Shown here piece after piece: positions 4,368 through 36,347 of a stretch of 48,482 bases of DNA (position 1 is the first letter of the stretch; each line of letters opens with the position of its first letter). The position numbers and the translations under genes are program-made. The stretch is from positions 1 to 48,482 of the IMG/VR virus record IMGVR_UViG_3300020054_000854. One strand, 5' to 3'. Below the pieces are notes generated by a model. That model had not been told where the DNA came from and did no database searches. It worked only from the letters and a program-made list of their open reading frames with translations. The DNA comes from a virus.

Positions 4368-5056
4368 ATCAGTTCCTTCAATTTTTTTGCATCTTTTAAT
4401 CTAACATTTTCAGTATCATTAAATATAATCTGATCTTTATGATATAGATTGCCTCTTTCTTGTGTTCTATTCCTTGCATAGGTTTGGTCGTAATCAGATT
4501 TATTTACAACAAAATGTTTATGTTCTGTTTGTACCGTAGGAATGAAATGACATCGATTAATTTTTTTCGCAATGTCAAAAACCCAAGTATCATTATACCC
4601 AAAATTAAAAACACCAGGCGTAAAGTATCCTAAGCAATTGTACCATTCTTTTGAAACAATTGGAAAGGCGCAATGTTTACTACCATTAATTTTATCTTCG
4701 AACCATGCACAGTAAATTTTATCTTTAAAAATCGATATGCTTTCTTGAAGTTCAGTATCCCATCCGCTTGAAAGATATATCAAATCATCGTTACCCATTA
4801 TTAATATTTCTGCGCCGTCAGCGATTGCTTTTTCAGCTAAAACATTCCAACTTTTTGATACTGAAATCGGTTCGCCAACTATGTCTATGGCGTTATACAA
4901 TTCTTGAGATGAATAATTTGAGATTTCGGGATCGTCGTTATCTATATAATAATAACAAAAAATGTTTTCTTTGCGATCTGCCAAATCAATAACGGAATCA
5001 TGAAAACGTTTTCTTTTTAAATGTCTTTGTCTTGTTGGTGTTAAAAGAGCAATCAT
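4355..5056 (-). CDS. glycosyltransferase, GT-A/GT2-like
   Basis: 233 residues. N-terminal IALLTPTRQRHLKRKRFHDS is the typical first strand and helix of GT2-type enzymes, and the motif LIMGNDDLIYLSSGWD carries the acidic pair (NDD) expected to bind the divalent metal and nucleotide sugar. Later GVFNFGYNDTWVFDIAKK is like the acceptor-side region. No membrane helices. It overlaps both neighbours by a few bases (4 bp with the upstream methyltransferase gene), indicating translational coupling. Donor could be the uronic sugar from the dehydrogenase gene. Confidence 0.7.
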   Translation of the reverse strand: MIALLTPTRQRHLKRKRFHDSVIDLADRKENIFCYYYIDNDDPEISNYSSQELYNAIDIVGEPISVSKSWNVLAEKAIADGAEILIMGNDDLIYLSSGWDTELQESISIFKDKIYCAWFEDKINGSKHCAFPIVSKEWYNCLGYFTPGVFNFGYNDTWVFDIAKKINRCHFIPTVQTEHKHFVVNKSDYDQTYARNRTQERGNLYHKDQIIFNDTENVRLKDAKKLKELIWED

Positions 5057-5577
5057 TTAATAGTATACCAAGAAGGAGATAACGACCAAGGATCTCTTTC
5101 GCTGTTATCAAATTCAAATATGTTTAATTCTAAATTGTGTTTTTCAAAAAAACCGTTTACTACCGCAACGTTTAACGGCCACTTCATTGAATAATCGTCA
5201 CCAGAAAATAAACCGCCTTTCTTTACTTTAGGCCACCAATCATCTAGTGTTTGTCCGCTATCCTGACCAGTATGTGCATAACCATCTATATACACAACAT
5301 CAAAATATTCGTTTGGGAAAAGATCGACAGCTTCAGAAAATTTCATTTTTAATAATGAAGAGTTTTCTCTAAAGGGTTGCAGTCGTTTTATTGCAGATTT
5401 ATATTGAATGACGTCATGGCCTCGGTCACCGGCCCACATATCGACACCGTACCAATGTTTTATATTACAAGTCGATAAAACACGATAACTGAAAGTGCCT
5501 TCGGCGACTCCTAATTCTATTCCAGTCAAAGAGTGTAAAGGGTCGCCAATTTTTATAAGATCTTCACGTTTCAACAT
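5053..5577 (-). CDS. class I SAM-dependent methyltransferase
   Basis: 174 residues. Motif I GIELGVAEGTFSYRVL, the acidic residue of the next strand in HWYGVDMWAGD, and FDVVYIDGYAHTGQ with KVKKGGLFSGDDY after it match the Methyltransf_24/TylF-like class often found beside glycosyltransferases. First gene of the leftward four-gene cassette after a terminator-like hairpin at 5578-5604. Overlaps the downstream glycosyltransferase start (ATGA-type). Likely O-methylation of a sugar; substrate unproven. Confidence 0.75.
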   Translation of the reverse strand: MLKREDLIKIGDPLHSLTGIELGVAEGTFSYRVLSTCNIKHWYGVDMWAGDRGHDVIQYKSAIKRLQPFRENSSLLKMKFSEAVDLFPNEYFDVVYIDGYAHTGQDSGQTLDDWWPKVKKGGLFSGDDYSMKWPLNVAVVNGFFEKHNLELNIFEFDNSERDPWSLSPSWYTIK

Positions 5578-20031: not shown

Positions 20032-22587
20032 ATGAATAACAAGCAAACATTTTATACGTCAGTCGAACGGTTCGGCAACAATATCCTTTGGCGAGGTTAC
20101 AAGAATGGCCGGCCTTTTAATGAAAAGGTAAAGTTCAAACCTTCCTTGTATTACCATACACCAAAATCTACAAATGAATACCGTTCTCTGCTTGATAATC
20201 GAAACTTATCAAAGCATACGTTCGATTCAATGCGCGAAGCAAAAGAATTCATCGAACAATATGGAGACGTCGGTAACTTTAAAATATACGGTACCACCAA
20301 TTACGTATCTCAATTCATTCAACATAATTATCCAGGCAACATTGAATTTGATCCTGATCTAATTAACATTGCTTCGTTTGATATTGAGGTTGACATCAGC
20401 GACGGATACGCCGATATCGAAACGGCTGATAAAGAAATTACGTCAATCGCGTATAAGTCCTCGAAGTCTAACACATATTACCTCCTTGGCCGTAAAGATT
20501 ACGACAAAACAAAAACGATTACAAATATTGACCCTGAAGATATCAAATTCATTAAGTTTGATACCGAAGTACAATTACTTAGATATTTTGTTGATCTTTG
20601 GAAACAAGGCGGTTATCCTGATATCGTAACAGGATGGAACGTTGAATTTTTTGACATTTCATATATCGTTACTCGAATCCTTCGTCTTTGTGGCGAAACA
20701 AAAGCAAACGAATTGTCTCCTTGGCGGTCAATTCAAAAACAGGTTCGAGAGTTTTTCGGCAAACCGCAAACGACATACAAAATTAGCGGTGTTGCAGTCA
20801 TCGACTATATGGACGCATTCAAAAAATTCGGATACAAATACGGTCCTCAAGAATCCTATAAACTTGATCACATTGCCCACGTGGTTCTTGGTGAAAAGAA
20901 ATTGGATTATTCTGAATACGGTAACTTGACTGCATTATACGAACAAAATCCACAACTGTACCTTGATTATAACCTTAAAGATACGCAACTGATTCAAAGA
21001 ATGGAAGATGAAACCGGTTTGTTATCTTTGGTTATGACTGTTGCTTATGGCGGTGGTGTAAATTATGGGGATGCCTTTGGTACGGTTGGTATATGGGAAA
21101 CAACTATTTACCGTCGTCTTATTAAAGACAAAGTTGTTCCTCCGTTGAAAAAAGGTCCAGGTCAGCGGGCAGGCGAGTTGGTTGGTGGTTATGTTAAGGA
21201 CCCACAGGTAGGTATGCATCCGTGGGTTGTTTCTTTTGATCTCAACTCTCTGTATCCCCATCTTATGCTTCAATATAATATGTCACCTGAAACATACGAT
21301 CGCGATCGACGTGAATACGTTACTCAAGATTTGGTGTTAAAAGGCGAATATTTTAATAATGATCCTTCCGTTGCTGTAACTGCAAACGGCGTTTGCTTTC
21401 GTAAAGATAAGTTAGGTATTATTCCTGAAATCATTGATGAATATTACAATAACCGTTCTCAAATCAAAAAACAAATGTTAGCTGTTGAGCAACAACTTGA
21501 AAACGAAACGGATCCGCGTCAAAAAGCAATTTTGAAAAAAGAAGTTAACCAATTGCATAATTCGCAAATGGCAATTAAAATTTCGATGAATAGTCTTTAT
21601 GGCGCAACTGCGAACATTTACTTCCTCTATTATATTAACGAAATGGCAGAGGCAATTACGACCTCAGGTCAGCTATCAATTCGATACGCTCAAAAATCTG
21701 TTAATGATTATCTAAACAAGTTACTCAAAACAGATGATAAAGATTATATCGTATATATTGACACTGATTCCATTTATGTTAATTTTGGCCCGCTCATCGA
21801 AGAGGTGTTTGGAACTACCGACATCGAACGCAAACAAGGTGAAGAGTTTCTTGACCAAATTTGCTCAACTAAAGTAGAGGCAGTAATTGAAAAAGGTTAC
21901 GAGGACCTTGCAAAAAGAATGGGTGCCTATCGTCAAGCAATGTTTATGAAACGTGAAAAGATTACTGATAAGTCAATCTTTATTGCTAAAAAACGATATA
22001 TACTCAACGCATTGAACAGCGAAGGCGTTCATTACGAAAAACCAAAAATATCTGTTACTGGATTGGAATCGGTCAGATCGTCGACTCCACAGGTCGTTCG
22101 TGATAAAATGAAAGAAGCCTTTGACGTTATTATGAAAGGCGATGAAACAGACACCCAAAAATTTATTTCGGATTTTAAATCTGAATTTATGCGATTGCCT
22201 GCTGAGGAAATTGCTAAGACATCAGGTACCGATAACATTGACAAGTATCGAGAACGCGGTAGTAGTCTTTACAAAAAAGGATGCCCTATGCATGTTCGAG
22301 GATGTATACTTTACAATGCCGAACTTGAAAAGAAAAAGTTAACAAAGAAATTTGAATCAATCAAATCAGGAGATAAGATTAAATTTTTATACCTCAAAGT
22401 CCCAAATCCCATTCGAGAGAATATGATATCGTTTCCTGGGGTATTGCCTAAAGAATTAAATCTTGACCAATACATTGATTACGAAAAACAATTCGATAAG
22501 GTATTTCTTACTCCTATCGATGCAATCCTTGAAGCAATAGGTTGGTCTGCAGAAAAGATTGATACTCTTGAAAGTTTTTTTAGTTGA
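20032..22587 (+). CDS. 43: DNA polymerase gp43 (family B)
   Basis: 851 residues (T4 898). Exonuclease motif I FDIEVDIS; polymerase motif A SFDLNSLYPHLM (T4 has DFTSLYPS), motif B KISMNSLYGA, motif C YIDTDSIYV. The start MNNKQTFYTSVERFGNNIL aligns with T4 MKEFYISIETVGNNIV. It ends IDTLESFFS, a PIP-box-like sequence where T4 gp43 carries its gp45 clamp-binding peptide. No self-splicing element or split. Has its own promoter with essentially no leader. Confidence 0.97.
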   Translation: MNNKQTFYTSVERFGNNILWRGYKNGRPFNEKVKFKPSLYYHTPKSTNEYRSLLDNRNLSKHTFDSMREAKEFIEQYGDVGNFKIYGTTNYVSQFIQHNYPGNIEFDPDLINIASFDIEVDISDGYADIETADKEITSIAYKSSKSNTYYLLGRKDYDKTKTITNIDPEDIKFIKFDTEVQLLRYFVDLWKQGGYPDIVTGWNVEFFDISYIVTRILRLCGETKANELSPWRSIQKQVREFFGKPQTTYKISGVAVIDYMDAFKKFGYKYGPQESYKLDHIAHVVLGEKKLDYSEYGNLTALYEQNPQLYLDYNLKDTQLIQRMEDETGLLSLVMTVAYGGGVNYGDAFGTVGIWETTIYRRLIKDKVVPPLKKGPGQRAGELVGGYVKDPQVGMHPWVVSFDLNSLYPHLMLQYNMSPETYDRDRREYVTQDLVLKGEYFNNDPSVAVTANGVCFRKDKLGIIPEIIDEYYNNRSQIKKQMLAVEQQLENETDPRQKAILKKEVNQLHNSQMAIKISMNSLYGATANIYFLYYINEMAEAITTSGQLSIRYAQKSVNDYLNKLLKTDDKDYIVYIDTDSIYVNFGPLIEEVFGTTDIERKQGEEFLDQICSTKVEAVIEKGYEDLAKRMGAYRQAMFMKREKITDKSIFIAKKRYILNALNSEGVHYEKPKISVTGLESVRSSTPQVVRDKMKEAFDVIMKGDETDTQKFISDFKSEFMRLPAEEIAKTSGTDNIDKYRERGSSLYKKGCPMHVRGCILYNAELEKKKLTKKFESIKSGDKIKFLYLKVPNPIRENMISFPGVLPKELNLDQYIDYEKQFDKVFLTPIDAILEAIGWSAEKIDTLESFFS

Positions 22588-22648: not shown

Positions 22649-22864
22649 ATGGTAACGGTTACATCTTATGAGACAGTTGAAAAAAATGTCCGCAATTGGG
22701 TATCAATTATGAAAGACCCATATTTTGATGGTTTTACTGGTTGGGGTCAAAAACAGAAACTATACCTACTGAAAGAATTGGTGGATGGTATTTTGGCTGA
22801 CCCCGACCTCCCTCATTATAATGGGGAAGAAGAATGGTTAAAAGAAATGGAGATAACTTTATGA
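22649..22864 (+). CDS. 71-residue hypothetical protein
   Basis: Acidic helical protein (starts MVTVTSYETVEKNVRNWVSI, with FDGFTGWGQKQKLYLLKELV). Ribosome site AAGAGGTGG. ATGA overlap with the MazG-like gene. No family recognised. Confidence 0.6.
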   Translation: MVTVTSYETVEKNVRNWVSIMKDPYFDGFTGWGQKQKLYLLKELVDGILADPDLPHYNGEEEWLKEMEITL

Positions 22865-23271
22865 GTAAAAATTGGGTACAAGACATTCGAGATATGCACG
22901 ATCATTTTGGAATGTCTGAAAAATTCGAAAAAATGGATCAAAGAACTAAAATGCAATTTTTATTGTTCAGAGAAAGATTTCTTAGAGAAGAAATGAGCGA
23001 GCTGCACGGTGCTATAGGAGCTTCAAATGGCGAACCACCTAATAAAGCTGAAATTGTAGATGCGTTGATTGATCTTTGTGTTGTTGCAATTGGAACACTT
23101 GATGCGTTTGGAATAGATGCCGACAAGGCGTGGAACCTCGTTCTTCAAGCAAATATGTTAAAAGAACCTGGAGTAAAAGAATCTAGACCAAATCCTTTTG
23201 GTCTGCCAGATCTTATTAAACCTGAAGGCTGGGTTGCTCCTGATCATTCTGACAACACTGGGAGATTGTAA
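22861..23271 (+). CDS. MazG-like / all-alpha NTP pyrophosphohydrolase
   Basis: 136 residues from ATG 22861, chosen because it overlaps the previous stop (ATGA) and has GGAGATAAC upstream; a longer start at 22834 is less likely. LREEMSELHGAIG supplies EExxE and AEIVDALIDLCVV supplies ExxD, the metal-binding signature of MazG/HisE/dCTPase-type enzymes. They cleave NTPs or dNTPs to monophosphates. In a phage that makes hydroxymethyl-dCMP, a dCTP/dUTP pyrophosphatase is needed (T4 uses gp56, not seen here), so this is a candidate. Confidence 0.7.
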   Translation: MSKNWVQDIRDMHDHFGMSEKFEKMDQRTKMQFLLFRERFLREEMSELHGAIGASNGEPPNKAEIVDALIDLCVVAIGTLDAFGIDADKAWNLVLQANMLKEPGVKESRPNPFGLPDLIKPEGWVAPDHSDNTGRL

Positions 23272-23550: not shown

Positions 23551-24513
23551 ATGGGTATTCGCGTAACAGAATCGGATAATTCAACATTAACTGAAGTTGC
23601 AACTAAGATGTACACTAAGGCATTGCCAAGTGTTATCGATAGTTTTCAAAATAACCCAAATCGAGAAAAGTTTACAACCGTCTTAGGTATGTACGGCGAA
23701 ATTGTTGCATCTGAAATTTGCAACGCTGAAATTTCTAACAATCATGGTTACGATATGATTGTTAGAAAAACTACCTTTGTACCTATTGCCGGCATAGACG
23801 ACGGCGGTCATTATCAGATTACGTTAAACGCTGGTGCACGTATTGAAGTAAAGACTCAATTTGCTTCTCAAGAAGATACTGTTCGGATGCAAGGTGTTGA
23901 AGGTAAACAAGGTCAATGTGATTATTTCTTTTTTAATGATTATAGCAATATCGATAGCCCAAGGCATTACTTAATTCCACACGATCAATTTTTCAAATCT
24001 GCATACATTAACGATTCAACAATTAAGTGGTATAAACCTCACGTTAACACATTTTACAAAAGCGGAAAACAAAAACCGTACCATGAAAATACTCTTTTAG
24101 TAAATTACTTCGAGGTGATTAGCGGTCACGTCGAAATAATCAATGAAACTTTTAATGATGATAAGGAGATAAACTCGATGGCAAATCGACGTGTAATGGA
24201 ACTGACTGAAATCAACTCTGCTTATAAGCACGAACCAAACAAACTCGGTCTTGTTCCTTTTTCAGTACTTGACTCAGGTCAATTACAAATGGCTGCAAAA
24301 AATATTGTTTTGCGTAGTCGAAATACAAACGAAACCATTAAGTTAGGTGACGCAACTCCAATTTCAACAAAGCGCGTATTTGAAAATAATCGCAAACTCG
24401 CAAAGGTTGAATTGGATAAGACCTTCCCTGCGATGGTAAAAGGTTATTTCTTCAACAAGTTTAAGAAATTGCCAGTAGATCAGAATGCTTGGGTGGTCGA
24501 GTATACTGTATGA
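23551..24513 (+). CDS. candidate PD-(D/E)XK nuclease
   Basis: 320 residues. In the N-terminal third there is a helix with acidic residues (GEIVASEICNAE, about 49-60), then GYDMIV with D68, and ARIEVKTQFASQ with E99-x-K101: the order and spacing of a PD-(D/E)XK core. The remainder (SGHVEIINETFND, MANRRVMELTEINSAY) is unfamiliar. First gene after its own promoter, overlapping the dNMP kinase start by four bases. Could be a DNA-degrading or modification-dependent endonuclease that spares modified phage DNA; the nuclease call rests on motif only. Confidence 0.45.
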   Translation: MGIRVTESDNSTLTEVATKMYTKALPSVIDSFQNNPNREKFTTVLGMYGEIVASEICNAEISNNHGYDMIVRKTTFVPIAGIDDGGHYQITLNAGARIEVKTQFASQEDTVRMQGVEGKQGQCDYFFFNDYSNIDSPRHYLIPHDQFFKSAYINDSTIKWYKPHVNTFYKSGKQKPYHENTLLVNYFEVISGHVEIINETFNDDKEINSMANRRVMELTEINSAYKHEPNKLGLVPFSVLDSGQLQMAAKNIVLRSRNTNETIKLGDATPISTKRVFENNRKLAKVELDKTFPAMVKGYFFNKFKKLPVDQNAWVVEYTV

Positions 24514-25079
24514 TCTTAATTATTGAAGGTATGGATAATTGCGGCAAGTCTTATTTGATTAATGACTTGCGCAAGCAATACTTTAAGAGGCATCGAACGA
24601 TTACACATCATTCATCCTCTCCTCCCACAAAATCCGCACCTGATATATGGGAACAAATGCATTACGATGATTTGTTCTCAACATTTAAGCAAATGGTCCA
24701 ACACGAAGGTTACGACGTTCTGTTGGACCGTTTCCATCTCGGTGCAATTGTTTACGGTGCTAAATATCGTAATTCATCGCCCCACGCAATGAAAACAATT
24801 GACAGAAGACATCTTGAAAATTATGATCAAGCTGCCCTGTTATTGTTGACTGATACTAATGAAGGCATTATGTCTCGAGACGATGGCTTGAGTATCGAAC
24901 AAAGCGCCGAAGAATATGACGATGTTCGTAGAAGGTTTACTGAAGCGTTTAAAGAATCATACGCAGTTAATAAACTTCACGTCAATATTACTACTAACGG
25001 TGGTATTGACAAGACGCTATCAACTGTGATACAATGGCTAGATCAAATTGAATCTATAAAATTAGAGGCATCCTATTAA
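24510..25079 (+). CDS. deoxynucleoside monophosphate kinase (thymidylate kinase-like)
   Basis: 189 residues from ATG 24510 (ATGA overlap with the previous stop; an upstream start is unlikely). ILIIEGMDNCGKSYLINDL is the P-loop, and YDVLLDRFHLGAIVYG is the DR-type motif of thymidylate kinases. LLLTDTNEGIMSRDDG resembles the lid region. Located directly before dCMP hydroxymethylase, so it may phosphorylate hydroxymethyl-dCMP and/or dTMP, the job done in T4 by gp1. One base overlaps the next start. Confidence 0.8.
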   Translation: MILIIEGMDNCGKSYLINDLRKQYFKRHRTITHHSSSPPTKSAPDIWEQMHYDDLFSTFKQMVQHEGYDVLLDRFHLGAIVYGAKYRNSSPHAMKTIDRRHLENYDQAALLLLTDTNEGIMSRDDGLSIEQSAEEYDDVRRRFTEAFKESYAVNKLHVNITTNGGIDKTLSTVIQWLDQIESIKLEASY

Positions 25080-25744
25080 TGCAAACTGTAAATGACATTC
25101 GCAAAAAGTTGATGATGAAGCGTATCGAAAACGATTACGTTACCGATAAGACCGGTGTCAAAACAATTGAGCTCGTTGGTGAATCGTTTATTGCTGATGA
25201 AGATTGGATTGTTCGCAAGCCCAACTTAGAATATGTTCAACGCGAACTCGAATGGTATCACAATATGTCATTGCGAGTTGATGATATTCCTGGTGAAACG
25301 CCACAAATTTGGAAAGACATTGCGTCTACTCGCGGTAAGATCAATTCAAATTATGGTTATCTGATTTGGCATGAAAATAACGGAGATCAATATCGTAATT
25401 GTTTGCGTGAACTCCGTGCTAATCCAGATAGCCGACGTGCTACTATGATCTATAACAGACCAAGTATGCACACCGATTATAACCAAGACGGTATGTCAGA
25501 TTTTGTTTGTACATACGCAAATCAGTTTATGATTCGTGATAACAAACTTGTCTCACATTATATTATGCGATCTAATGACGCCGTCTTTGGTTATTGTAAT
25601 GATGTTCATTGGGCCATGCATGTACATAAAATGCTGGCTTATGATCTTAACATAGAGAAAGGCGATCTGATTTGGACTGCTTCATCGTTTCATATATACG
25701 AACGCCACTTTAAATTTTTGGATAAATTAATTACACATGGTTGA
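25079..25744 (+). CDS. 42: deoxycytidylate 5-hydroxymethyltransferase (gp42)
   Basis: 221 residues (T4 gp42 246). Strong similarity to T4 gp42: DKTGVKTIELVGESFIADE, YVQRELEWY, DIPGETPQIWKDIAS, SNYGYLIW, NPDSRRATMIYNRPSM, DGMSDFVCTYANQF. Cys144 corresponds to catalytic Cys148. In MRSNDAVFGYCND, Asp175 falls where T4 has Asp179, the residue that selects dCMP; thymidylate synthases have Asn there. The enzyme adds a hydroxymethyl group from methylene-tetrahydrofolate to dCMP, so the genome probably contains 5-hydroxymethylcytosine or a derivative. A related activity (5-hydroxylation) cannot be excluded from sequence. Confidence 0.9.
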   Translation: MQTVNDIRKKLMMKRIENDYVTDKTGVKTIELVGESFIADEDWIVRKPNLEYVQRELEWYHNMSLRVDDIPGETPQIWKDIASTRGKINSNYGYLIWHENNGDQYRNCLRELRANPDSRRATMIYNRPSMHTDYNQDGMSDFVCTYANQFMIRDNKLVSHYIMRSNDAVFGYCNDVHWAMHVHKMLAYDLNIEKGDLIWTASSFHIYERHFKFLDKLITHG

Positions 25745-26204
25745 TTGGAATACAAGATTTTTACAACTTGCTCGTGAAATAAGTACGTGGTCAAAAGATC
25801 CTAGTACTCAGGTAGGCGCCGTCATTATTAATGAGAAGCGGCGTATTCTTGCAACTGGATATAACGGATTTCCTCGAGGCATTTTCGATAAAGAATCTCG
25901 ATTGCAAGACCGTGAGCAAAAATATCAATTAGTTGTTCATGCTGAAATGAACGCAATCTATAACGCTACATATAATGGCGTATGTCTTGAAGGCGCAACT
26001 CTTTATGTGTGGGGTTTACCTGCATGTTCAGAATGTGCTAAAGGTATTATTCAGGTTGGTATTAAAAAGGTTGTGATGGCTGACATAAATAAAGTTGACA
26101 AGTGGCAGAAATCGTTTGAGATTTCTAAAGCTTTATTTGATGAAGCAAGTGTTGAATATAAAATGGTAGAAATAAATGAAACACAACAAGCGAATCGTTC
26201 TTGA
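25737..26204 (+). CDS. cd: deoxycytidylate deaminase (dCMP deaminase)
   Basis: 155 residues. Zinc motif VVHAEMNAIYNA and LPACSECAKGIIQ (HAE...PCxxC-type, here PACSEC), plus STQVGAVIINEKRRILATGYNGFPRG, the usual deaminase N-terminus. Converts dCMP to dUMP for dTMP synthesis. Overlaps gp42 by eight bases and the next gene by 29. Confidence 0.93.
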   Translation: MVDWNTRFLQLAREISTWSKDPSTQVGAVIINEKRRILATGYNGFPRGIFDKESRLQDREQKYQLVVHAEMNAIYNATYNGVCLEGATLYVWGLPACSECAKGIIQVGIKKVVMADINKVDKWQKSFEISKALFDEASVEYKMVEINETQQANRS

Positions 26205-27204
26205 TTTTGATGATACGTTAGCATATACAAAAAATCGAGATTGGGAAAACGCAATTCCAAACGAAGCATTAATACAAAAATGCAATCAGTTGTTTGATTC
26301 TGGTTGGACAATTGATATCTTTACCGCCCGTGGATCTATTTCCTGTAAAACCCGTATTGAAGCCGAACAAAAATACGGTCAACAAATTAGAAGTTGGTTA
26401 TCCAAACACAATGTTAAATATAACGAATTGAGTTTTGATAAACCTCTTGCTGCTTATTATATTGACGATAAAGGCATCTCTCCAGAATTATTCTTGGAAG
26501 CTGATATTAAACAATTGTGCGGTGGGTTATCTGGATCTGACATATATACCGATGGCAATCTTGTTCACAAAACAGCTGACAACGGTCATGAAGCAATGTC
26601 TTGGTTTGATTCTGCTAAAGAATTTTTGAATGTTCCAAGAATTGATCGTATTGTTGGTAATACTTTAACTATGGAATATATTAATCATAACGAGCAATAT
26701 TTTTCCGATAATATCTTTATTGCTTTGGCTAAGATTCAAGAAGTATTGACTGCAATGTCAAAAAGACCATCTCTTAATGAAAAAGTTTTTGATGATTATG
26801 CAGCAAGAATTAAAGAACACTGTGAATTAGCAAACCTAAAATTGTTTGACAAAGTACATAATATGTTGTATAATGGCAAACAATATAAAAGCAACTTTGC
26901 TCACGGAGATTTTGGAATAAAAAATCTGCTATTCAGCGATGAACGTTTGGTGTTGATTGATCCGATACCAAACGTTTTTGGCTGTGTTGAATTAGACGTT
27001 GCAAAATTTTTGGCAAGTTTGCTAATTAACAAATACACAAAAGAAGAATACGATACCTCGTTCGAATTGTTATCTTTTTATAACAAGATCGACAAAAATG
27101 ATTTAAGAATTCTTGTTGCTTCCGAATGCATACGAGTTTTTAAATATCACCCAGATAAAGTGTTTGTTCTTACTTGTGTAAACTCGATAATACAGGAGAT
27201 ATAA
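26176..27204 (+). CDS. HAD-like phosphatase / aminoglycoside-choline-type kinase fusion
   Basis: 342 residues, two domains. Residues 1-115: HAD motif I VLDFDDTLAY (DxDxT), FTARGS, and a late motif LAAYYIDDKG. Residues about 120-342: protein-kinase-like small-molecule kinase with FAHGDFGIKNLLF (HGDxxxxN catalytic loop) and LVLIDPIPN (metal-binding Asp). Such kinases phosphorylate choline, sugars or aminoglycosides. The gene overlaps the deaminase by 29 bases and abuts a cytidylyltransferase, so the two probably make a CDP-activated small molecule. Substrate unknown. Confidence 0.7.
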   Translation: MKHNKRIVLDFDDTLAYTKNRDWENAIPNEALIQKCNQLFDSGWTIDIFTARGSISCKTRIEAEQKYGQQIRSWLSKHNVKYNELSFDKPLAAYYIDDKGISPELFLEADIKQLCGGLSGSDIYTDGNLVHKTADNGHEAMSWFDSAKEFLNVPRIDRIVGNTLTMEYINHNEQYFSDNIFIALAKIQEVLTAMSKRPSLNEKVFDDYAARIKEHCELANLKLFDKVHNMLYNGKQYKSNFAHGDFGIKNLLFSDERLVLIDPIPNVFGCVELDVAKFLASLLINKYTKEEYDTSFELLSFYNKIDKNDLRILVASECIRVFKYHPDKVFVLTCVNSIIQEI

Positions 27205-27639
27205 ATGTTTTTAGATAGAAAAACTTTACCTGAAAACGCAAAGGTAGGTTTTACTTGCTCGACGTTCGATTTGTTTCACGCCGGCCATCTTGTTATGTTA
27301 CAAGAAGCAAAAACTTTGTGTGATTATTTGATTGTCGGTTTATTAATTGACCCGACAGTTGATCGTCCTGAAAATAAAAATAAACCTATACAAACGCCTT
27401 TTGAAAGGTATATACAAGTATCATCTTGCAAGTATGTCGATGAAGTTATTCCATTCACTACAGAACAAGAAATCGTTGATATGATATTGACTATCAATCC
27501 TGATATTAGAATCGTTGGTGAAGAATACAAAGACGTTGAGCACACTGGCAAAGGCCTTTGTCAAATACATTACAATCGTCGGCGGCATTCGTTTTCTTCA
27601 ACTGAACTTCGATCGCGCGTAGTTGCCGCCCATAAATAA
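27205..27639 (+). CDS. cytidylyltransferase-like nucleotidyltransferase (TagD/CCT family)
   Basis: 144 residues. TCSTFDLFHAGHLVMLQEAK contains the HxGH-type nucleotide-binding motif, and HSFSSTELRSRV matches the RTxGISTT/S-type C-terminal signature. The family couples CTP (or ATP) to glycerol-phosphate, phosphocholine, phosphoethanolamine or sugar phosphates. It begins directly after the kinase fusion stop and precedes a glycosyltransferase, consistent with making a nucleotide-activated donor. Confidence 0.8.
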   Translation: MFLDRKTLPENAKVGFTCSTFDLFHAGHLVMLQEAKTLCDYLIVGLLIDPTVDRPENKNKPIQTPFERYIQVSSCKYVDEVIPFTTEQEIVDMILTINPDIRIVGEEYKDVEHTGKGLCQIHYNRRRHSFSSTELRSRVVAAHK

Positions 27640-27663
27640 TACACTGAAGTTGAGTTTTATATT

Positions 27664-28908
27664 ATGAAAAATATCGGTTTTGCAAAAATCGGCAAGTCTA
27701 TCAAATTAAAGACAAACAATTATTCTCCTATTGGTGGTGATAACGAACCATCTGCATTTCTTCGCGCTTTAGCAAATAACAACCCAGATAAAACTTTTTA
27801 TATTGTTGGCCGTTCGGATTTTAGCACCCTATCTGAAACTGAACGACTCAATCTTTTTCCATACGATAATGTAATCGATATTTGGAAAGGAGTTAAGTCA
27901 GAAAAAACAGAAAAATTTTACCGTCATATTATCAATTATTTTAAAGATAAAAAAATTCAATTAGATTTTACTGTAATGATGGTTGGGCAAGTCGGTACTG
28001 TAACCGTTCCTAATAAAATTATCAAGACGCGTAATGATGATGGTATTCCTGCAGCGGTAATTGATATGACAAAGTTTTATACTTCGCCAATCAGCGTATG
28101 GATAAATGAAGACAAGCCGCGTTACATAGAAATTGTAAATGACCCAAGATACGTAATGAATCAATCTCGAGATATATTCCATTTGCCTGAAATTTCTTTA
28201 GGACAATATGATTATGAATATCGAGTCAATTGTATTGAATCTTACGAAGATCAAACTCGAAAGGAAGTGTATACAAAATCTAAATATGCTGGTATGGAAG
28301 TTGGTTTTTGCATGGATTACAAATATACCGAAGAAGTTAATATTAAACGTAATATAAACTTCATGATGATTTTGAATGAAGGTAAACCTTCTCGATACAG
28401 TTTACTAAAAGAATGGGTTCTTGATGAAATTGATGACGTTGAAATTTATGGTCGATGGGAAGACGATCGTGCTTTAACCGATCATCGTTTCCGAGGCTCT
28501 TTACATATTGACGAAATACAACGCAAGCTTAATAATGTTAAATTTACTTTTATCATTCCAATTAAAAAAGGATGGGTAACAGCAAAATATTTAGAAATGA
28601 TTCACGCTGGTGTAATTCCATTTTTCCACCCAACCTATGACGAACAGAGGCATTTGCAAATTCCTGACTTCCTTCGAGTTAATAGCGCGTCTGAAATGAA
28701 AGAAAAAATGGAACGTTTAATAAACAATGAAAACGAGTATGTTTCTGTTTTAAAAGGTTTGCGTAAATTGATTCTTAAACCTGAATATTACGACGGTACA
28801 TTCCTAAACAAACAAATTATGTCTGCCGCTGATCCTTCTTATGTTGCTCCAAACAAAGAAGAATATGAAAAGAAAACGGCTGCAACACTTGAGGAGTTTT
28901 TTGCATGA
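27664..28908 (+). CDS. glycosyltransferase, GT-B-like, candidate DNA glycosyltransferase
   Basis: 414 residues, size of T4 alpha-glucosyltransferase (400). Two Rossmann-like halves: N-terminal GFAKIGKSIKLKTNNYSPIG with a gap, and a C-terminal half with NFMMILNEG, KFTFIIPIKKGWVTAKYLEM and IHAGVIPFFHPTYDEQ (the donor-side Glu/His region of GT-B enzymes). It ends TLEEFFA, the same PIP-like peptide as gp43 and the next gene. It overlaps the C5-methyltransferase by four bases. Location in the hydroxymethylcytosine operon plus clamp-type tail argue that its acceptor is DNA; acting on a surface glycan remains possible. Confidence 0.65.
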   Translation: MKNIGFAKIGKSIKLKTNNYSPIGGDNEPSAFLRALANNNPDKTFYIVGRSDFSTLSETERLNLFPYDNVIDIWKGVKSEKTEKFYRHIINYFKDKKIQLDFTVMMVGQVGTVTVPNKIIKTRNDDGIPAAVIDMTKFYTSPISVWINEDKPRYIEIVNDPRYVMNQSRDIFHLPEISLGQYDYEYRVNCIESYEDQTRKEVYTKSKYAGMEVGFCMDYKYTEEVNIKRNINFMMILNEGKPSRYSLLKEWVLDEIDDVEIYGRWEDDRALTDHRFRGSLHIDEIQRKLNNVKFTFIIPIKKGWVTAKYLEMIHAGVIPFFHPTYDEQRHLQIPDFLRVNSASEMKEKMERLINNENEYVSVLKGLRKLILKPEYYDGTFLNKQIMSAADPSYVAPNKEEYEKKTAATLEEFFA

Positions 28909-30134
28909 ATAAAGAAATAACTTGGGCCCCTTTGATACCTTTAATCGGAGGACAAATGTTAGGCGCTGAAAGGGCATTTGGTACAGCTCCGTCTGCAATA
29001 TATTCTTATGATGGGTTTCAAGCAAATGATGGACATTATGTAAATTATCAACAAAATACATTAGGTCGAGATGTTTCGTATATCTTACTTGAAGATAACA
29101 TTCCCCGTGGTAAAGTTGATGTTATTTCTGGCACTCCTCCTTGTGCGGCCTTGAGTCAATTAAATACAGGTATGTCTGCAGAATCAAAAGGCGCAACTTG
29201 TGCAAAGAATGATTGGATGTACCAAGTCTTTACAGAAGCAATTGATAATTTTGAGGTCAAAGCAGTTGTAGTTGAAAATGCGCCTGCTCTTTTTACAAAT
29301 AAAGGTTATGAAGTTGCAAAAAAATTATATGATATTTGTAACGAACGCGGGTATAGTTTGACTTTGTATAAAACATCAACTAAATATCATGGAATTCCAC
29401 AGGCAAGAGATCGTACATTTGCTATTGGTTGGAAATCTGAAACCGCTCCTATTATGGGTTGGTATAAAAGAGATCGACAAACATTTGAAGAATATTTGAA
29501 TACTTTGCCAAAAGATTCATTACAAAATGATTTGATTATCAACAAAAAAGTTGCGGATGAGCCATACTATCAATTCATCAAAACACTTTCTAACCAAGAT
29601 CCTCGTGAAATTATTATTGAAGATCGTGATCACGGCGGGGGTACGGCATTTGGTTGGATTCAACGCAACGGATTATTAGAACGCGCAAATCAATGGTTTA
29701 AAGAAACCGGCAACGAAGCAGGGATTAAATATTCTGATCATGCAATTAAAAAATTTGCTGCAGGAAAAGGTATTTGGGATGGCTCTGTACACGTTTTTAA
29801 GGATACAATGAATGCTGTAATAGGCCGTAATATGGTTGACACTATTCACCCATCTGAAGATCGATCTTTAACTATCCGTGAAGCATTATATATGATGGGA
29901 TTCCCTACAGATTTTGAATTGATTGGAGGTTTGCCTAAAGTAAATCATATTGCACAAAATGTACCAGTACCAACATCACGAGACATTCATACAGAAGTTG
30001 CAAAGTTTATTAGAGGCGAATTATCATTTTCAGAAACAAACTTTTTGCGACAAAATAATCACAAAGAAGAAACTTCGGTCGACCCATACGGTAAAAACAA
30101 TCAACCGACTCTTGAGGAGTTTTTTGCGGCATGA
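28905..30134 (+). CDS. DNA C5-cytosine methyltransferase
   Basis: 409 residues. Motif IV ISGTPPCAALSQLNTG carries the Pro-Cys catalytic pair, motif VI VVVENAPALF (ENV-type), motif VIII HGIPQARDRTFAIG (QxRxR). Motif I is atypical (PLIPLIGGQMLGAERAF instead of FxGxGG). Target recognition region is about residues 180-320, and TIHPSEDRSLTIREALYMMGFP is motif IX/X. The C-terminus QPTLEEFFAA is a PIP-box-like peptide. The ATGA overlap and internal GAGGAG provide coupling to dexA. It could methylate cytosines ahead of or instead of hypermodification; specificity unknown. Confidence 0.88.
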   Translation: MNKEITWAPLIPLIGGQMLGAERAFGTAPSAIYSYDGFQANDGHYVNYQQNTLGRDVSYILLEDNIPRGKVDVISGTPPCAALSQLNTGMSAESKGATCAKNDWMYQVFTEAIDNFEVKAVVVENAPALFTNKGYEVAKKLYDICNERGYSLTLYKTSTKYHGIPQARDRTFAIGWKSETAPIMGWYKRDRQTFEEYLNTLPKDSLQNDLIINKKVADEPYYQFIKTLSNQDPREIIIEDRDHGGGTAFGWIQRNGLLERANQWFKETGNEAGIKYSDHAIKKFAAGKGIWDGSVHVFKDTMNAVIGRNMVDTIHPSEDRSLTIREALYMMGFPTDFELIGGLPKVNHIAQNVPVPTSRDIHTEVAKFIRGELSFSETNFLRQNNHKEETSVDPYGKNNQPTLEEFFAA

Positions 30135-30751
30135 AACACCATTTAATATTAGACTTCGAAACCTTGGGGCAGGATGTACACAAATGTGCAATTATTGATG
30201 TTTCTGTCATGGTATTTGATTGGGATCGTTTTTGTAGCGATAATCCTTACACTTATAAGGATATTGAATTAACAAAAAGATTTAAGTTATCAGTTAAAGA
30301 TCAAACTTCAAACTATGATTACGAAATTCAAAAAGACACAATTGAGTTTTGGGAACAACAAGAAAAAGAAGTTCGAACTAAGATTACCCCAAAACCTGAT
30401 GACTTGACTGTTAAAGAATTTACTGATCAATTTTTAGATTTTTTAATTGATGGGCCAAAGATTGAATATTGGTGGTCAAGATCTAATACTTTTGATCCAG
30501 TTATTCTTGAAAGATTATTCAAATCTCAAGGTAAAGTTAAACACATGCAAGAACATTTAAAGTATTGGGCTGTACGTGATACAAGAACTTGGATTGATGC
30601 AAAATTAAATTTTCCTAAAACCAACGGTTTTACTCCAGTGAACCGAGAAGAATGGGATAAAGTATTTAAAAAGCACGACAGTTCTTGGGATATCTTAGCT
30701 GATGTATTAAGAATGCAATTTATTGACCGTATTGAAAACGACGTGGATTAA
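30131..30751 (+). CDS. dexA: exonuclease DexA (DEDD family)
   Basis: 206 residues (T4 DexA 227). LILDFETLGQDVHKCAIIDV provides the first D and E, WWSRSNTFDPVILERL the third-motif region and HDSSWDILADVLR the last acidic motif; HKCAIIDVSVMVFDW is typical of T4 DexA. A 3'-5' DNA exonuclease. Overlaps the methyltransferase stop (ATGA), with the tag-coding GAGGAG serving as its ribosome site. Confidence 0.88.
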   Translation: MKHHLILDFETLGQDVHKCAIIDVSVMVFDWDRFCSDNPYTYKDIELTKRFKLSVKDQTSNYDYEIQKDTIEFWEQQEKEVRTKITPKPDDLTVKEFTDQFLDFLIDGPKIEYWWSRSNTFDPVILERLFKSQGKVKHMQEHLKYWAVRDTRTWIDAKLNFPKTNGFTPVNREEWDKVFKKHDSSWDILADVLRMQFIDRIENDVD

Positions 30752-30753
30752 AA

Positions 30754-31647
30754 ATGGAACAAGATAAAATAAGTATAGAAGAATTGCGTAAACACAAGAT
30801 CTTTTTGGCAACACCTATGTATGGCGCCCAATGTATGGGATCCTATACAAAATCGGTTGCAGAATTATCAATGATTTGCGCTGTTAACCAAATCGCAATT
30901 AAACATTACTTTATCTTTAATGAGAGTTTAATTCAAAGAGCAAGAAATTATTGTGTAGACGAATTTCTCAGATCAGACTCAACTCATTTGTTGTTCATTG
31001 ATGCTGATGTTGCTTTTAATCCACACCACGTTATCAATATGTTAGCAATACAGCTTAAGAATGAAGAAATTGATATTATTACTGCGCCTTATCCAAAAAA
31101 AGCGATTGCTTGGGAAAAAGTTATTAAAGCTGTCGAGCAAGGCAAAGGCAATGATAATCCATACGATTTAGAAAAATATACAGGTGATATGGTATTCAAT
31201 CCGGTGCGTAAAGAAAATGGGCCTCCTTTAAGGTTAGACCAACCTATTGAAATTATGGAAGGCGGAACCGGATTTATGTTAATACCAAGATACGTATTTG
31301 AAAAATTTAATGCAGCGTTTCCTGAATTGAGATATACGCCCGATCATATAAGGTCTGAAAACTTCGATGGCACAAGACAAATTACTGCGTTTTTTGATTG
31401 TATCATCGATCGTACTTCAGGCCGTTATTTGTCTGAAGATTATTTCTTTTCAAGAAAATGTCGAGAGATTGGATTGAGTATTTGGATGTGTCCTTGGATG
31501 GAATTGCATCATATTGGGACGTATATTTTTAAAGGAAATATGATTGCTGCCAATTCAATTGGTGCTGCGGCTACCGCAAATGAATCTGCAAGGAGAAGTA
31601 CTTATAACAAAAATAAGGCTAAGCGTGATAAAAAGAAAAATAGTTGA
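30754..31647 (+). CDS. GT-A glycosyltransferase of marine phages
   Basis: 297 residues. KIFLATPMYGAQCMGSYTKS, FNESLIQRARNYCVDEFLRS and HLLFIDADVAFNP (DxD metal motif), then GGTGFMLIPRYVFEKF, LSEDYFFSRKCREIGLSIWM and MELHHIGTYIF. This is a family I associate with T4-like and other marine phages and annotated only as glycosyltransferase. Its place at the end of the modification operon makes a role in DNA or virion glycosylation plausible. It lacks the PIP-like tail. Its stop overlaps the gp45 promoter. Confidence 0.8.
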   Translation: MEQDKISIEELRKHKIFLATPMYGAQCMGSYTKSVAELSMICAVNQIAIKHYFIFNESLIQRARNYCVDEFLRSDSTHLLFIDADVAFNPHHVINMLAIQLKNEEIDIITAPYPKKAIAWEKVIKAVEQGKGNDNPYDLEKYTGDMVFNPVRKENGPPLRLDQPIEIMEGGTGFMLIPRYVFEKFNAAFPELRYTPDHIRSENFDGTRQITAFFDCIIDRTSGRYLSEDYFFSRKCREIGLSIWMCPWMELHHIGTYIFKGNMIAANSIGAAATANESARRSTYNKNKAKRDKKKNS

Positions 31648-31703: not shown

Positions 31704-32366
31704 ATGAAGTTCAGTGAAGAAACGGTAACAGTTCTTAAAAACTTTTCTGGGATTAACAAATCAATTCGTTTTACCCCAGGATCAACTTTAAAGACTATTA
31801 CTCCAGAAAAAACTTTGATTGCAACCGCCGCGATCAAAGACAAAATTCCATCAGAGGCTTGCGTATATGATGTCTCAAGATTTTTATCAATTTTGAGTCT
31901 TTATAATGAGCCTGATGTAGAATTTAATGATAAATATTTTATTATTTCTGAAGGACGGCGTAGAACGAAATATGTCTATGCTGATATTTCAATGATTCAC
32001 GTTCCTCCTGAAAAGGATATTAATATCCCTACAGAAGACGTGGTTGTCAATGTCAAGTGGGAAGATCTGCAATCAGTGCTTAAGGCTGCAGGTGTCCTTC
32101 AGTTCTCTGAGGTTGCTTTCGTTGGTACCGACGGCAAAGTATATCTCAAAGCCATCGACAGTTCACAAGAAGGTGCTGATGACTACGGTATCGAGATTGG
32201 CGAAACTGAAGATGAATTTAAGATTATCATCAAAACCGATAACCTTAAACTGTTACCCCAGGATTACAGAGTAACCCTTTGTTCTAAAGGTATTTCTGAA
32301 TTCAAAGGTGACTCGGCTACTTATTTTGTAGCTATTGATTCAAAGTCGACTTACAATAGAGGATAA
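31704..32366 (+). CDS. 45: sliding clamp gp45
   Basis: 220 residues (T4 228). MKFSEETVTVLKNFSGINKS and the domain repeats (VYDVSRFLSILSLYNEPDVE; LKLLPQDYRVTLCSKGISEF; TYFVAIDSKS) match the T4/PCNA-fold clamp. It tethers gp43 and in T4 also activates late transcription with gp55 and gp33. PIP-like tails on three proteins of this window are its likely ligands. Strong promoter and ribosome site suggest high expression. Confidence 0.95.
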   Translation: MKFSEETVTVLKNFSGINKSIRFTPGSTLKTITPEKTLIATAAIKDKIPSEACVYDVSRFLSILSLYNEPDVEFNDKYFIISEGRRRTKYVYADISMIHVPPEKDINIPTEDVVVNVKWEDLQSVLKAAGVLQFSEVAFVGTDGKVYLKAIDSSQEGADDYGIEIGETEDEFKIIIKTDNLKLLPQDYRVTLCSKGISEFKGDSATYFVAIDSKSTYNRG

Positions 32367-35257: not shown

Positions 35258-35710
35258 ATGACTAGACTTAACTTTAATACGTTAACCCCTTATTCCGTTG
35301 GTTTCGATCGCATGTTCGATCGGCTGTTAGATTTGGATACAAGCCATCCTAATAACCAAGGATTCCCCCCTTACAATATCCGCAGAGAAGATGAGAAATT
35401 CTTCATCGACATTGCTCTCGCCGGAATCGACCAAGAAGATATTGACATCGAGCACAAAGAAAATACCTTGACTGTCAAATCAGCGTGGGACGAATCAGGC
35501 GATTACCTCAATGGTGGTGGCGAATATCTTCACCGTGGTATTTCAAGAAAGAAATTTACTCGACAGTTCACCCTCACGGATGATATTGAGGTGCAAGGTG
35601 CCGAGTATGTCAATGGTCTTTTAACTATTCACTTGGAAAGGATTATCCCCGAAGAGAAGAGACCAAAGAAAATCGCTATTAATTCAAAAAAAGAATTGTT
35701 AGTTGAATAA
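35258..35710 (+). CDS. hsp20: small heat shock protein Hsp20
   Basis: 150 residues. N-terminus LNFNTLTPYSVGFDRMFDRL is like IbpA; the alpha-crystallin domain runs from YNIRREDEKFFIDIALAGID to YVNGLLTIHLERIIPEEKRP, and the tail KKIAINS holds the I-x-I motif. ATP-independent holdase. Marine T4-like phages often carry one, thought to aid virion assembly or protect host proteins. Expression likely temperature controlled (leader hairpins). Confidence 0.95.
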   Translation: MTRLNFNTLTPYSVGFDRMFDRLLDLDTSHPNNQGFPPYNIRREDEKFFIDIALAGIDQEDIDIEHKENTLTVKSAWDESGDYLNGGGEYLHRGISRKKFTRQFTLTDDIEVQGAEYVNGLLTIHLERIIPEEKRPKKIAINSKKELLVE

Positions 35711-35716
35711 ATATCC

Positions 35717-35732
35717 GGGGTCTTCGGACCCC
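35717..35732 (+). promoter_or_regulatory. UUCG-capped hairpin between hsp20 and peroxiredoxin
   Basis: GGGGTC-TTCG-GACCCC, a very stable C(UUCG)G hairpin 22 bases before the peroxiredoxin ATG. No T-run follows, so it is more likely an RNA stability or processing element than a terminator. Confidence 0.5.
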
Positions 35733-35753
35733 AACCTTGAGGAGTATAACATT

Positions 35754-36347
35754 ATGGAATTTGAAAAAACTAACTATCTTCCTTCTTTGATTCCGGACGT
35801 AACATTCAAAACGCGTGTTCGTGATGAATCTATTGGAGGGGATAATCCGTATCGTTGGGAAGACGTTACAACGGACGATCTGTTTGCTAATAAGCGAATT
35901 GTATTGTTCAGTCTTCCAGGTGCATTCACGCCGACTTGTTCAACGTACCAAGTACCTGGTTTTGAAGAAGCGTATGAACGCATCAAATCATTATATGTTG
36001 ATGATGTATATTGTATCTCTGTTAATGATTCGTTCGTTATGAATAAATGGGCAGAGGCACAAGGCGTCAAAAATATTAAAATGATTCCTGATGGATCAGG
36101 ATTATTTACTGATGGGATGGGAATGTTAGTTGACAAAGACAATCTCGGTTTCGGTAAAAGATCTTGGAGATATGCTGCACTTATTACGGATGGCGTTGTT
36201 GAATTTGAATTCGTTGAAGACGGAAAAGAAGACAATTGCGAAACCGATCCGTATGGCAAATCTTCGCCTGAATCAGTTATTAACTACCTTGAGCACGTCC
36301 AAGAAAGGTTCGAAGCAAAAGGTAAAGAAGGTGAAAAAGCTGCTTAA
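35754..36347 (+). CDS. peroxiredoxin (Prx5/AhpC-TSA type)
   Basis: 197 residues from ATG 35754 with TTGAGGAG upstream; an earlier in-frame start overlaps hsp20 and lacks a ribosome site. LFSLPGAFTPTCSTYQVPGF holds the peroxidatic Cys62 and the PxxxTxxC motif; FVMNKWAEAQG and DGSGLFTDGMGML are Prx5 features. Reduces hydrogen peroxide or organic peroxides; probably protects the infected cell from oxidative stress. C-terminal tail is charged. Confidence 0.92.
   Translation: MEFEKTNYLPSLIPDVTFKTRVRDESIGGDNPYRWEDVTTDDLFANKRIVLFSLPGAFTPTCSTYQVPGFEEAYERIKSLYVDDVYCISVNDSFVMNKWAEAQGVKNIKMIPDGSGLFTDGMGMLVDKDNLGFGKRSWRYAALITDGVVEFEFVEDGKEDNCETDPYGKSSPESVINYLEHVQERFEAKGKEGEKAA

Follow-up and report, generated by a model that had tools for sequence, protein, structure and literature searches.

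What kind of cytosine would a T4-like phage place in its DNA when a gene resembling T4 gene 42 stands in one array with genes for sugar activation, glycosyl transfer and cytosine methylation? This question is raised by an operon at positions 24510-31647 of the IMG/VR virus record IMGVR_UViG_3300020054_000854. The window, that is the whole stretch analysed, covers this record of an uncultivated virus in full (48,482 bases) and represents a fragment of a T4-like genome; a megablast comparison of the window with phage records gave zero matches. An earlier sequence-only reading had proposed that the phage carries a sugar- or adduct-bearing cytosine. This proposal is supported by the phylogeny of the gp42-like enzyme, by the likeness of a GT-B glycosyltransferase to the T4 DNA beta-glucosyltransferase (BGT), by a DNA alpha-glucosyltransferase (AGT) occupying the same slot in sister phages, and by related sugar cassettes lying beside thymidylate synthase (TS) homologues that carry Asp at the specificity position. 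We consider it likely that the operon specifies a T-even-type hypermodification of cytosine, with the sugar supplied by an alternative route and with the GT-B enzyme and a C5-methyltransferase (MTase) homologue docked on the sliding clamp.

Nine candidate genes for the pathway, all on the + strand, form a compact array in which the frames overlap or abut. Each was present where the sequence-only reading had placed it, and family scans returned matching names:

24510..25079, +: deoxynucleoside monophosphate (dNMP) kinase, thymidylate-kinase-like, probable hydroxymethyl-dCMP (hm-dCMP) kinase and T4 gp1 analogue (PHROG 761, E 1e-17; Pfam Thymidylate_kin, 3e-5)
25079..25744, +: predicted T4 gp42-type dCMP hydroxymethylase (thymidylate-synthase fold, E 2e-23; PDB 1b49, E 4e-74; tree; Cys144, Asp175)
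25737..26204, +: dCMP deaminase (family scan, E 3e-21; PHROG 174, E 3e-45)
26176..27204, +: fusion of an EcbF/BcbF-type HAD phosphatase with an APH/choline-kinase-like kinase (NCBIfam EcbF-BcbF, 3e-15; PDB 1xpj, 9e-19, and 9iqw, 1.5e-17)
27205..27639, +: cytidylyltransferase of the TagD/ECT/HldE-C type (CTP_transf, 4e-15; rfaE_dom_II, 6e-21; GCT, 1e-13; PDB ECT 3elb and GCT 1coz)
27664..28908, +: GT-B DNA glycosyltransferase candidate, 414 aa, tail ATLEEFFA (profile, AlphaFold2 model and fold match to T4 BGT)
28905..30134, +: C5-cytosine-methyltransferase homologue, 409 aa, tail PTLEEFFAA (Pfam DNA_methylase, 5e-23; AlphaFold2 model; alignment)
30131..30751, +: DexA-like exonuclease (PHROG 255, E 4e-31)
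30754..31647, +: GT-A-like protein, 297 aa (PHROG 1574)

The same gene order is repeated in dozens of independent contigs, so that the array is far beyond chance. Two of the earlier assignments had to be adjusted. The announced kinase-HAD fusion exists with the HAD domain first and the kinase second, and of the two announced glycosyltransferases the 414-aa GT-B protein is linked to the pathway, the 297-aa protein having marginal glycosyltransferase matches (E about 1e-3) and belonging to a PHROG of unknown function.

The gp42-like enzyme and the identity of the base

The window gp42 is 55% identical to T4 gp42 and 55-59% identical to T4-type dCMP hydroxymethylases, compared to about 26% for RB69 ORF048c. 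Its Cys144, the nucleophile, and its Asp175 stand exactly where they had been noted; Asp175 aligns with Asn177 of E. coli TS, a position at which the RB16 Td control has Asn, not Asp. Asp at this position marks modified-cytosine contigs in the MetaGPA study (PMC8670742). In the tree, the window enzyme falls in a clade with T4, PS2, KaAlpha and AB1I1M-1 (support 97/100), and RB16 Td and the RB69/Thanatos enzymes lie outside the T4 gp42 clade, the latter two separated by a branch of 4.95. The possibility that gp42 would prove TS-like in phylogeny is thus excluded, and Asp175 together with the tree placement rules out a thymidylate synthase. The branch of 4.95, the tree and the low identity likewise set the enzyme apart from the RB69-type 5-hydroxy-dCMP synthases. 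Because gp42 sits inside the T4 clade, far from the RB69/Thanatos 5-hydroxy-dCMP synthases, the window enzyme is likely a T4-type dCMP hydroxymethylase and 5-hydroxymethylcytosine (hmC) the likely base, from which we infer hmC in virion DNA. In the nearest relative with flanking sequence (loci L004/L005), gp42 is 83% identical to that of the window.

The dNMP kinase gene has its first ATG at 24510, the longest frame beginning with TTG at 24489, and it precedes gp42 in the related loci L004, L051 and L079 as well. As a candidate orthologue of RB69 ORF045c it was rejected, the match being limited to 18 residues at the nucleotide-binding end.

Two annotated enzymes of other phages also carry Asp at the specificity position, namely the 'deoxyuridylate hydroxymethyltransferase' of Agathobaculum phage AB434P2 (L057:3838-4500) and the 'thymidylate synthase' of cyanophage S-TIM5 (L062:8757-9593, - strand), a phage that has the C5-MTase homologue too. 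This residue makes dCMP the likelier substrate of both.

The glycosyltransferase slot and the sugar cassette

When a profile was built from 30 relatives of the GT-B protein, its top PDB match was the T4 DNA beta-glucosyltransferase (E 0.0014). The AlphaFold2 model (pLDDT 85), whose alignment, like that behind the MTase model, was drawn from IMG/VR loci only, placed T4 BGT at ranks 1-4 in Foldseek and again at ranks 1-4 in VIA-align (Z 21.6, root-mean-square deviation 3.8, 314 aligned), followed by the next family at Z 18.4 and AGT at Z 17.5. The modelled fold is thus closest to DNA glucosyltransferases, T4 BGT first. It should be noted that no above-threshold match to the T4 DNA glucosyltransferase Pfam families was obtained, the BGT link being a distant profile match.

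The position of the gene points in the same direction. In L005, a T4-type AGT (PF11440, E 2e-77) lies between the dCMP deaminase and the methyltransferase, in the slot of the GT-B gene, and in L051 an AGT (PF11440, E 3e-63) lies between gp42/deaminase and the methyltransferase. A glycosyltransferase is found directly upstream of the methyltransferase in 88/91 assessable loci, most of which were recovered through the methyltransferase alone. Since AGT alleles occupy the slot and a glycosyltransferase fills it in nearly all of these loci, the comparison identifies it as a glycosyltransferase slot, of a known DNA type in some members. By fold and position, the window GT-B is predicted to act on hmC in DNA.

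The genes that would supply the sugar vary from locus to locus; beside the relatives with AGT at this slot, others have sugar cassettes resembling that of RB69. Allele A, the window type (30 loci), combines the HAD-kinase, the cytidylyltransferase and the GT-B; allele B (30 loci) has a nucleoside triphosphate (NTP)-transferase-kinase, a HAD protein and a GT-B of the window's family; allele C (8 loci) pairs an NTP-transferase-kinase with another GT-B, L038 and L126 also showing a ribulose-phosphate 3-epimerase; and allele D (4 loci) has AGT. A further locus, L130, encodes a HAD-PRK fusion, an AraD-like aldolase and a double NTP-transferase, and the RB69 cassette carries an arabinose-5-phosphate isomerase. 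In cassette A, the HAD motif DFDDT and the kinase motifs HGDFGxxN...IDP are conserved. In heptose activation by HldE and GmhB, a sugar-n-phosphate is converted to the sugar-1,n-bisphosphate, then to the sugar-1-phosphate and finally to the nucleoside diphosphate sugar. In several alleles, as in RB69, the kinase/HAD/nucleotidyltransferase trio recurs beside isomerases or epimerases of pentose phosphates, which suggests that the trio follows a bisphosphate route of this kind. As the window nucleotidyltransferase is nearest to the HldE-C and TagD/ECT families, a CDP-pentose is our best guess for the product, ADP being less likely, and the cassette is probably an alternative sugar supply of the CDP-sugar type.

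The cassette extends beyond the window's clade into unrelated phages. Agathobaculum phage AB434P2 encodes the HAD-kinase, cytidylyltransferase, GT-B and a TS homologue with Asp consecutively, and Enterococcus phage 9183 encodes a TMP kinase, TS, dUTPase, HAD, NTP-transferase and GT-B, its TS homologue again having Asp.

Several further observations concern these loci. Among loci carrying the cytidylyltransferase, this protein has a median identity of 87%, compared to 58% for the HAD-kinase, 68% for the GT-B and 65% for gp42, which reflects either strong constraint or recent exchange. Allele-B phages of the L040/L041 type have a beta-ketoacyl synthase between gp42 and the dCMP deaminase (L041:4557-5795; homologues in L069 and L120). 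A family of 250-280 aa with the motif N[YWF]RT[GA]ST, sulfotransferase-like by eye and with no significant Pfam match (L005:11110-11958, L096, L104, L112, L116), adjoins both the AGT allele and the cytidylyltransferase allele. The stretch from gp42 to the MTase in L007 (L007:9836-20377) holds a myo-inositol-1-phosphate synthase, FkbM and TylF-like methyltransferases, a 5-hmdU-DNA-kinase-like protein and two sulfotransferases, possibly for a quite different, inositol- or sulfate-based modification.

The C-terminal tails and the methyltransferase homologue

The GT-B and MTase proteins share with the DNA polymerase gp43 a C-terminal tail:

20032..22587, +: DNA polymerase gp43, C-terminus ...IDTLESFFS, where the clamp is known to bind in T4/RB69 (PHROG 262, E 1e-293)
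28885..28908, +: 3' end of the GT-B gene encoding the TLEEFF tail, predicted clamp-binding peptide
30108..30134, +: 3' end of the methyltransferase gene encoding the TLEEFF tail
31704..32366, +: sliding clamp gp45, to which all three tails are predicted to bind (homologous to RB69 and Thanatos gp45)

The pattern [ST]LE.FF occurs three times among the 66 open reading frames (ORFs) of the window, always at the C-terminus (IDTLESFFS in gp43, ATLEEFFA in GT-B, PTLEEFFAA in MTase), and did not arise in 2000 shuffles. A wider form of the tail ends 39/43 distinct GT-B and 46/51 distinct MTase proteins, and was found in 1/351 other operon proteins and 4/1040 unassigned ORFs. HVNTLF is the C-terminus of both gp43 and one of the two MTase copies (MTase2) in L051. 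In a crystal structure, gp45 carries the C-terminal peptide of RB69 gp43 (PMC3012046), and T4 alpha-GT pulls down gp45 (PMC13216743). As both tails match that of gp43 at its clamp-binding end, we infer that gp45 is the docking partner of GT-B and MTase.

The MTase model has a complete C5-MTase fold (pLDDT 91; M.HaeIII, Z 24.9). Cys80 of motif IV (PPC), Glu124-Asn125 of motif VI (ENAP) and Gln166-Arg168-Arg170 of motif VIII (QARDR) are invariant and motif X (QNVP) is kept; the N-terminal cofactor-binding stretch has diverged (IPLIGG), and the Pfam match begins at residue 40. No homologue of this MTase was present in T4, RB69, Thanatos, PS2, AB1I1M-1 or KaAlpha. Whatever the sugar cassette, gp42 was found in 28/29 MTase loci with more than 8 kb upstream, which raises the puzzle of why hmC-making phages nearly always retain a C5-MTase homologue.

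A clue comes from genes by which T4 purges cytosine. A dCTPase or Alc gene, suggested earlier as possible support for the operon's function, did not turn up: T4-like gp56 dCTPase, EndoII and Alc were found neither in the window, a fragment, nor in the relatives G001-G003 (201-221 kb, possibly incomplete), RB69 and PS2 carrying all three as controls. Because these genes were not found, the simplest reading is that the phages tolerate some cytosine, which the MTase would methylate at the fork. For pseudo-T-even phages, it has been proposed that C5 methylases protect the DNA against DenA (PMC8056088). A MazG-like NTP pyrophosphohydrolase, whose gene is kept downstream of gp43 in relatives, might possibly stand in for gp56:

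22834..23271, +: MazG-like NTP pyrophosphohydrolase (PRA-PH, 3e-8; PHROG 671, 2e-20)

The MTase might instead have nothing to do with hmC and be an operon passenger making ordinary, sequence-specific 5-methylcytosine for restriction evasion. This is doubtful, yet it is the alternative we take most seriously. The full set of catalytic motifs and the C5-MTase fold would suit such an enzyme, and pseudo-T-even phages devoid of hmC carry C5 methylases too (PMC8056088). Its almost constant company of gp42, the glycosyltransferase directly upstream, the shared clamp tail and the two copies in L051 argue for a closer partnership, and a genome fully in hmC would give an ordinary methylase no substrate. 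An improbable variant is that the MTase, instead of methylating cytosine, works on hmC in nascent DNA, its catalytic Cys activating C6 so as to replace or couple at the hydroxymethyl group. If true, one genome would hold a second, position-specific cytosine hypermodification alongside the glycosylated base.

Taken together, these data suggest the following course for the T-even-kind pathway. The gp42 homologue would hydroxymethylate dCMP, the dNMP kinase would help to make hm-dCTP and the polymerase would insert hmC, as their family membership suggests. The kinase would add a phosphate to a sugar phosphate at its anomeric carbon, the HAD phosphatase would strip the other phosphate, and the cytidylyltransferase would make a CDP-sugar, most likely a pentose, which the BGT-like GT-B may move onto hmC in DNA. 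GT-B and MTase probably ride the gp45 clamp by their tails and would act on newly made DNA. Most likely the MTase marks cytosines that escaped replacement, which is the least certain step.

Competing readings, neighbouring genes and known systems

Several points weigh against the pathway proposed above. The window operon, in a record that is a 48-kb fragment, has no GutQ/KdsD-like isomerase; the sugar phosphate would therefore come from the host. The nucleotidyltransferase looks like both ADP-heptose and CDP-glycerol enzymes, and the specificity of the cassette for CTP and a pentose is a matter of guesses. GT-B matches no Pfam or NCBIfam family above threshold (Glyco_trans_1_2 at E 0.002 is below the cut-off) and is just 11-12% identical to T4 BGT. 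As to docking, the regular expression for the tail was picked after the data had been seen, the RB69 clamp-pocket residues are not conserved in the window gp45, the AGT and GTB38 alleles have no tail, and neither do the GT-B and MTase of Pseudoalteromonas phage vB_Psh_XG4, although XG4 gp43 has one.

It could be argued that hmC is made but that a surface glycan is what the HAD-kinase, cytidylyltransferase and GT-B produce, remodelling capsule or lipopolysaccharide (LPS) and leaving DNA untouched. The HAD and nucleotidyltransferase families are typical of capsule/LPS loci, and the TagD homologue of Synechococcus phage S-B43 sits in a nucleotide-sugar cluster. We hold this to be quite improbable, as DNA alpha-glucosyltransferase alleles occupy the same slot, GT-B has T4 BGT as its nearest match and bears the polymerase tail, and the cassette adjoins Asp-type TS homologues in unrelated phages.

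A base other than hmC, namely the 5-hydroxycytosine of RB69 and Thanatos, to which a pentose is linked directly, is highly improbable. RB69-like phages are reported to make 5-hydroxy-dCMP, not hm-dCMP (PMC13390438), and the arabinosyl- or pentosyl-5-hydroxycytosine pathway of RB69, Thanatos and Mosigvirus does resemble the window in that HAD, APH-type kinase, nucleotidyltransferase and GT-B lie next to a TS-family enzyme and a dNMP kinase, the HAD, APH-type kinase and dNMP kinase being common to the window's relatives too; in addition, the HAD domain matches PDB 9iqw, whose entry number is near those of phage HY126 glycosyltransferases. The gp42 identities (55-59% to T4-type enzymes, about 26% to ORF048c) and the branch of 4.95 speak against it. 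The window differs further in its TagD/HldE-like cytidylyltransferase, a CTP_transf_like protein, replacing the NTP-transferase domain, its HAD fused to the kinase and its operon without isomerase.

Exceedingly improbable is the idea that the MTase is itself the main modifier, for instance a CmoX-type carboxymethyltransferase whose product then receives a sugar or amine: CmoX is an example of a phage C5-MTase homologue able to install such a handle (PMC12783734), and the PPC motif and fold are shared with 8yf3 (Z 23.0), but Asn352 of the window MTase, nearly invariant in its family, takes the place of CmoX Arg350, the criterion for binding carboxy-S-adenosylmethionine (M.HhaI has Asn304 there), and CmoA is absent from the window and its 200-kb relatives, the S-B43 control being detected. 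These two findings rule out CmoX identity; what the window has in common with the CmoA/CmoX/CmoY system of S-B43 is that a C5-MTase homologue accompanies DNA modification in a phage. A stretch of L140 (19963-20589), guessed to be the S-B43 CmoX, is not an MTase.

No TET/JBP dioxygenase was found, in a search in which no control genome gave a signal either, and no carbamoyltransferase in the window. The hmC carbamoyltransferase system of MetaGPA resembles the window in having an Asp-type TS, a dCMP deaminase and PRA-PH/MazG on modified environmental phage contigs (PMC8670742), and differs in that the window has a sugar cassette instead of the carbamoyltransferase. The only carbamoyltransferase domain found was in the 221-kb relative that holds L041 (G001:C1:181833-182435), where it could serve a further hmC decoration.

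Not all genes of the array seem to belong to the pathway. Two T4-superfamily phages whose complete genomes contain no gp42-type enzyme, Caulobacter phage Cr30 and Sinorhizobium phage phiM12, also keep the GT-A-like protein next to gp45/gp46. Its presence in these phages unties it from the pathway: it probably lies outside hmC synthesis and is unsupported as a second hmC glycosyltransferase. The DexA-like exonuclease is simply a conserved neighbour. Elsewhere in the window, a 320-aa ORF immediately 5' of the operon (23551-24513) gave zero Pfam, PHROG or NCBIfam matches, and an Hsp20-like chaperone (35258-35710) adjoins a peroxiredoxin-like protein (35703-36347). On the - strand, a UDP-glucose/GDP-mannose dehydrogenase (2536-3693) and a TylF-like O-methyltransferase (5053-5577) lie near a run of tRNA genes and perhaps belong to another sugar pathway.

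With the T4 pathway (gp42, gp1, cd, alpha-gt, beta-gt, gp56, denA, alc), the window has in common a gp42 orthologue, a dCMP deaminase, a dNMP kinase and a BGT-like GT-B; T4 alpha-GT too docks on gp45 (PMC13216743), as the tails predict for GT-B and MTase. The window differs from T4 by its own sugar-activation cassette, a GT-B outside the T4 BGT sequence family, the extra C5-MTase homologue and the clamp-type tails on GT and MTase, as well as by gp56, EndoII and Alc not being found in the 48-kb window or the 201-221 kb relatives. Phage XG4, the sole cultured phage found with both this MTase family and a T4-type gp42, has gp42, HAD, NTP-transferase-kinase, GT-B (43%), a further GT and the C5-MTase (48%) in one array; it differs in that an NTP-transferase replaces the cytidylyltransferase, gp56 is present and GT-B and MTase are tailless. 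T-even cytosine hypermodification is thus an already known kind of system; what appears new here is the cytidylyltransferase-type sugar cassette, the partnership of a C5-MTase with gp42 and the clamp-type tails.

Seen in this way, T-even-type cytosine hypermodification would be modular and common among T4-like phages of coastal and marine waters: a fixed core of gp42, dCMP deaminase and C5-MTase is combined with an exchangeable sugar cassette of the AGT, NTP-transferase or cytidylyltransferase type. If the proposal is true, a short transferable peptide couples base modification to the replication fork, and new DNA glycosyltransferases and CDP-sugar enzymes could be drawn from the cassettes.

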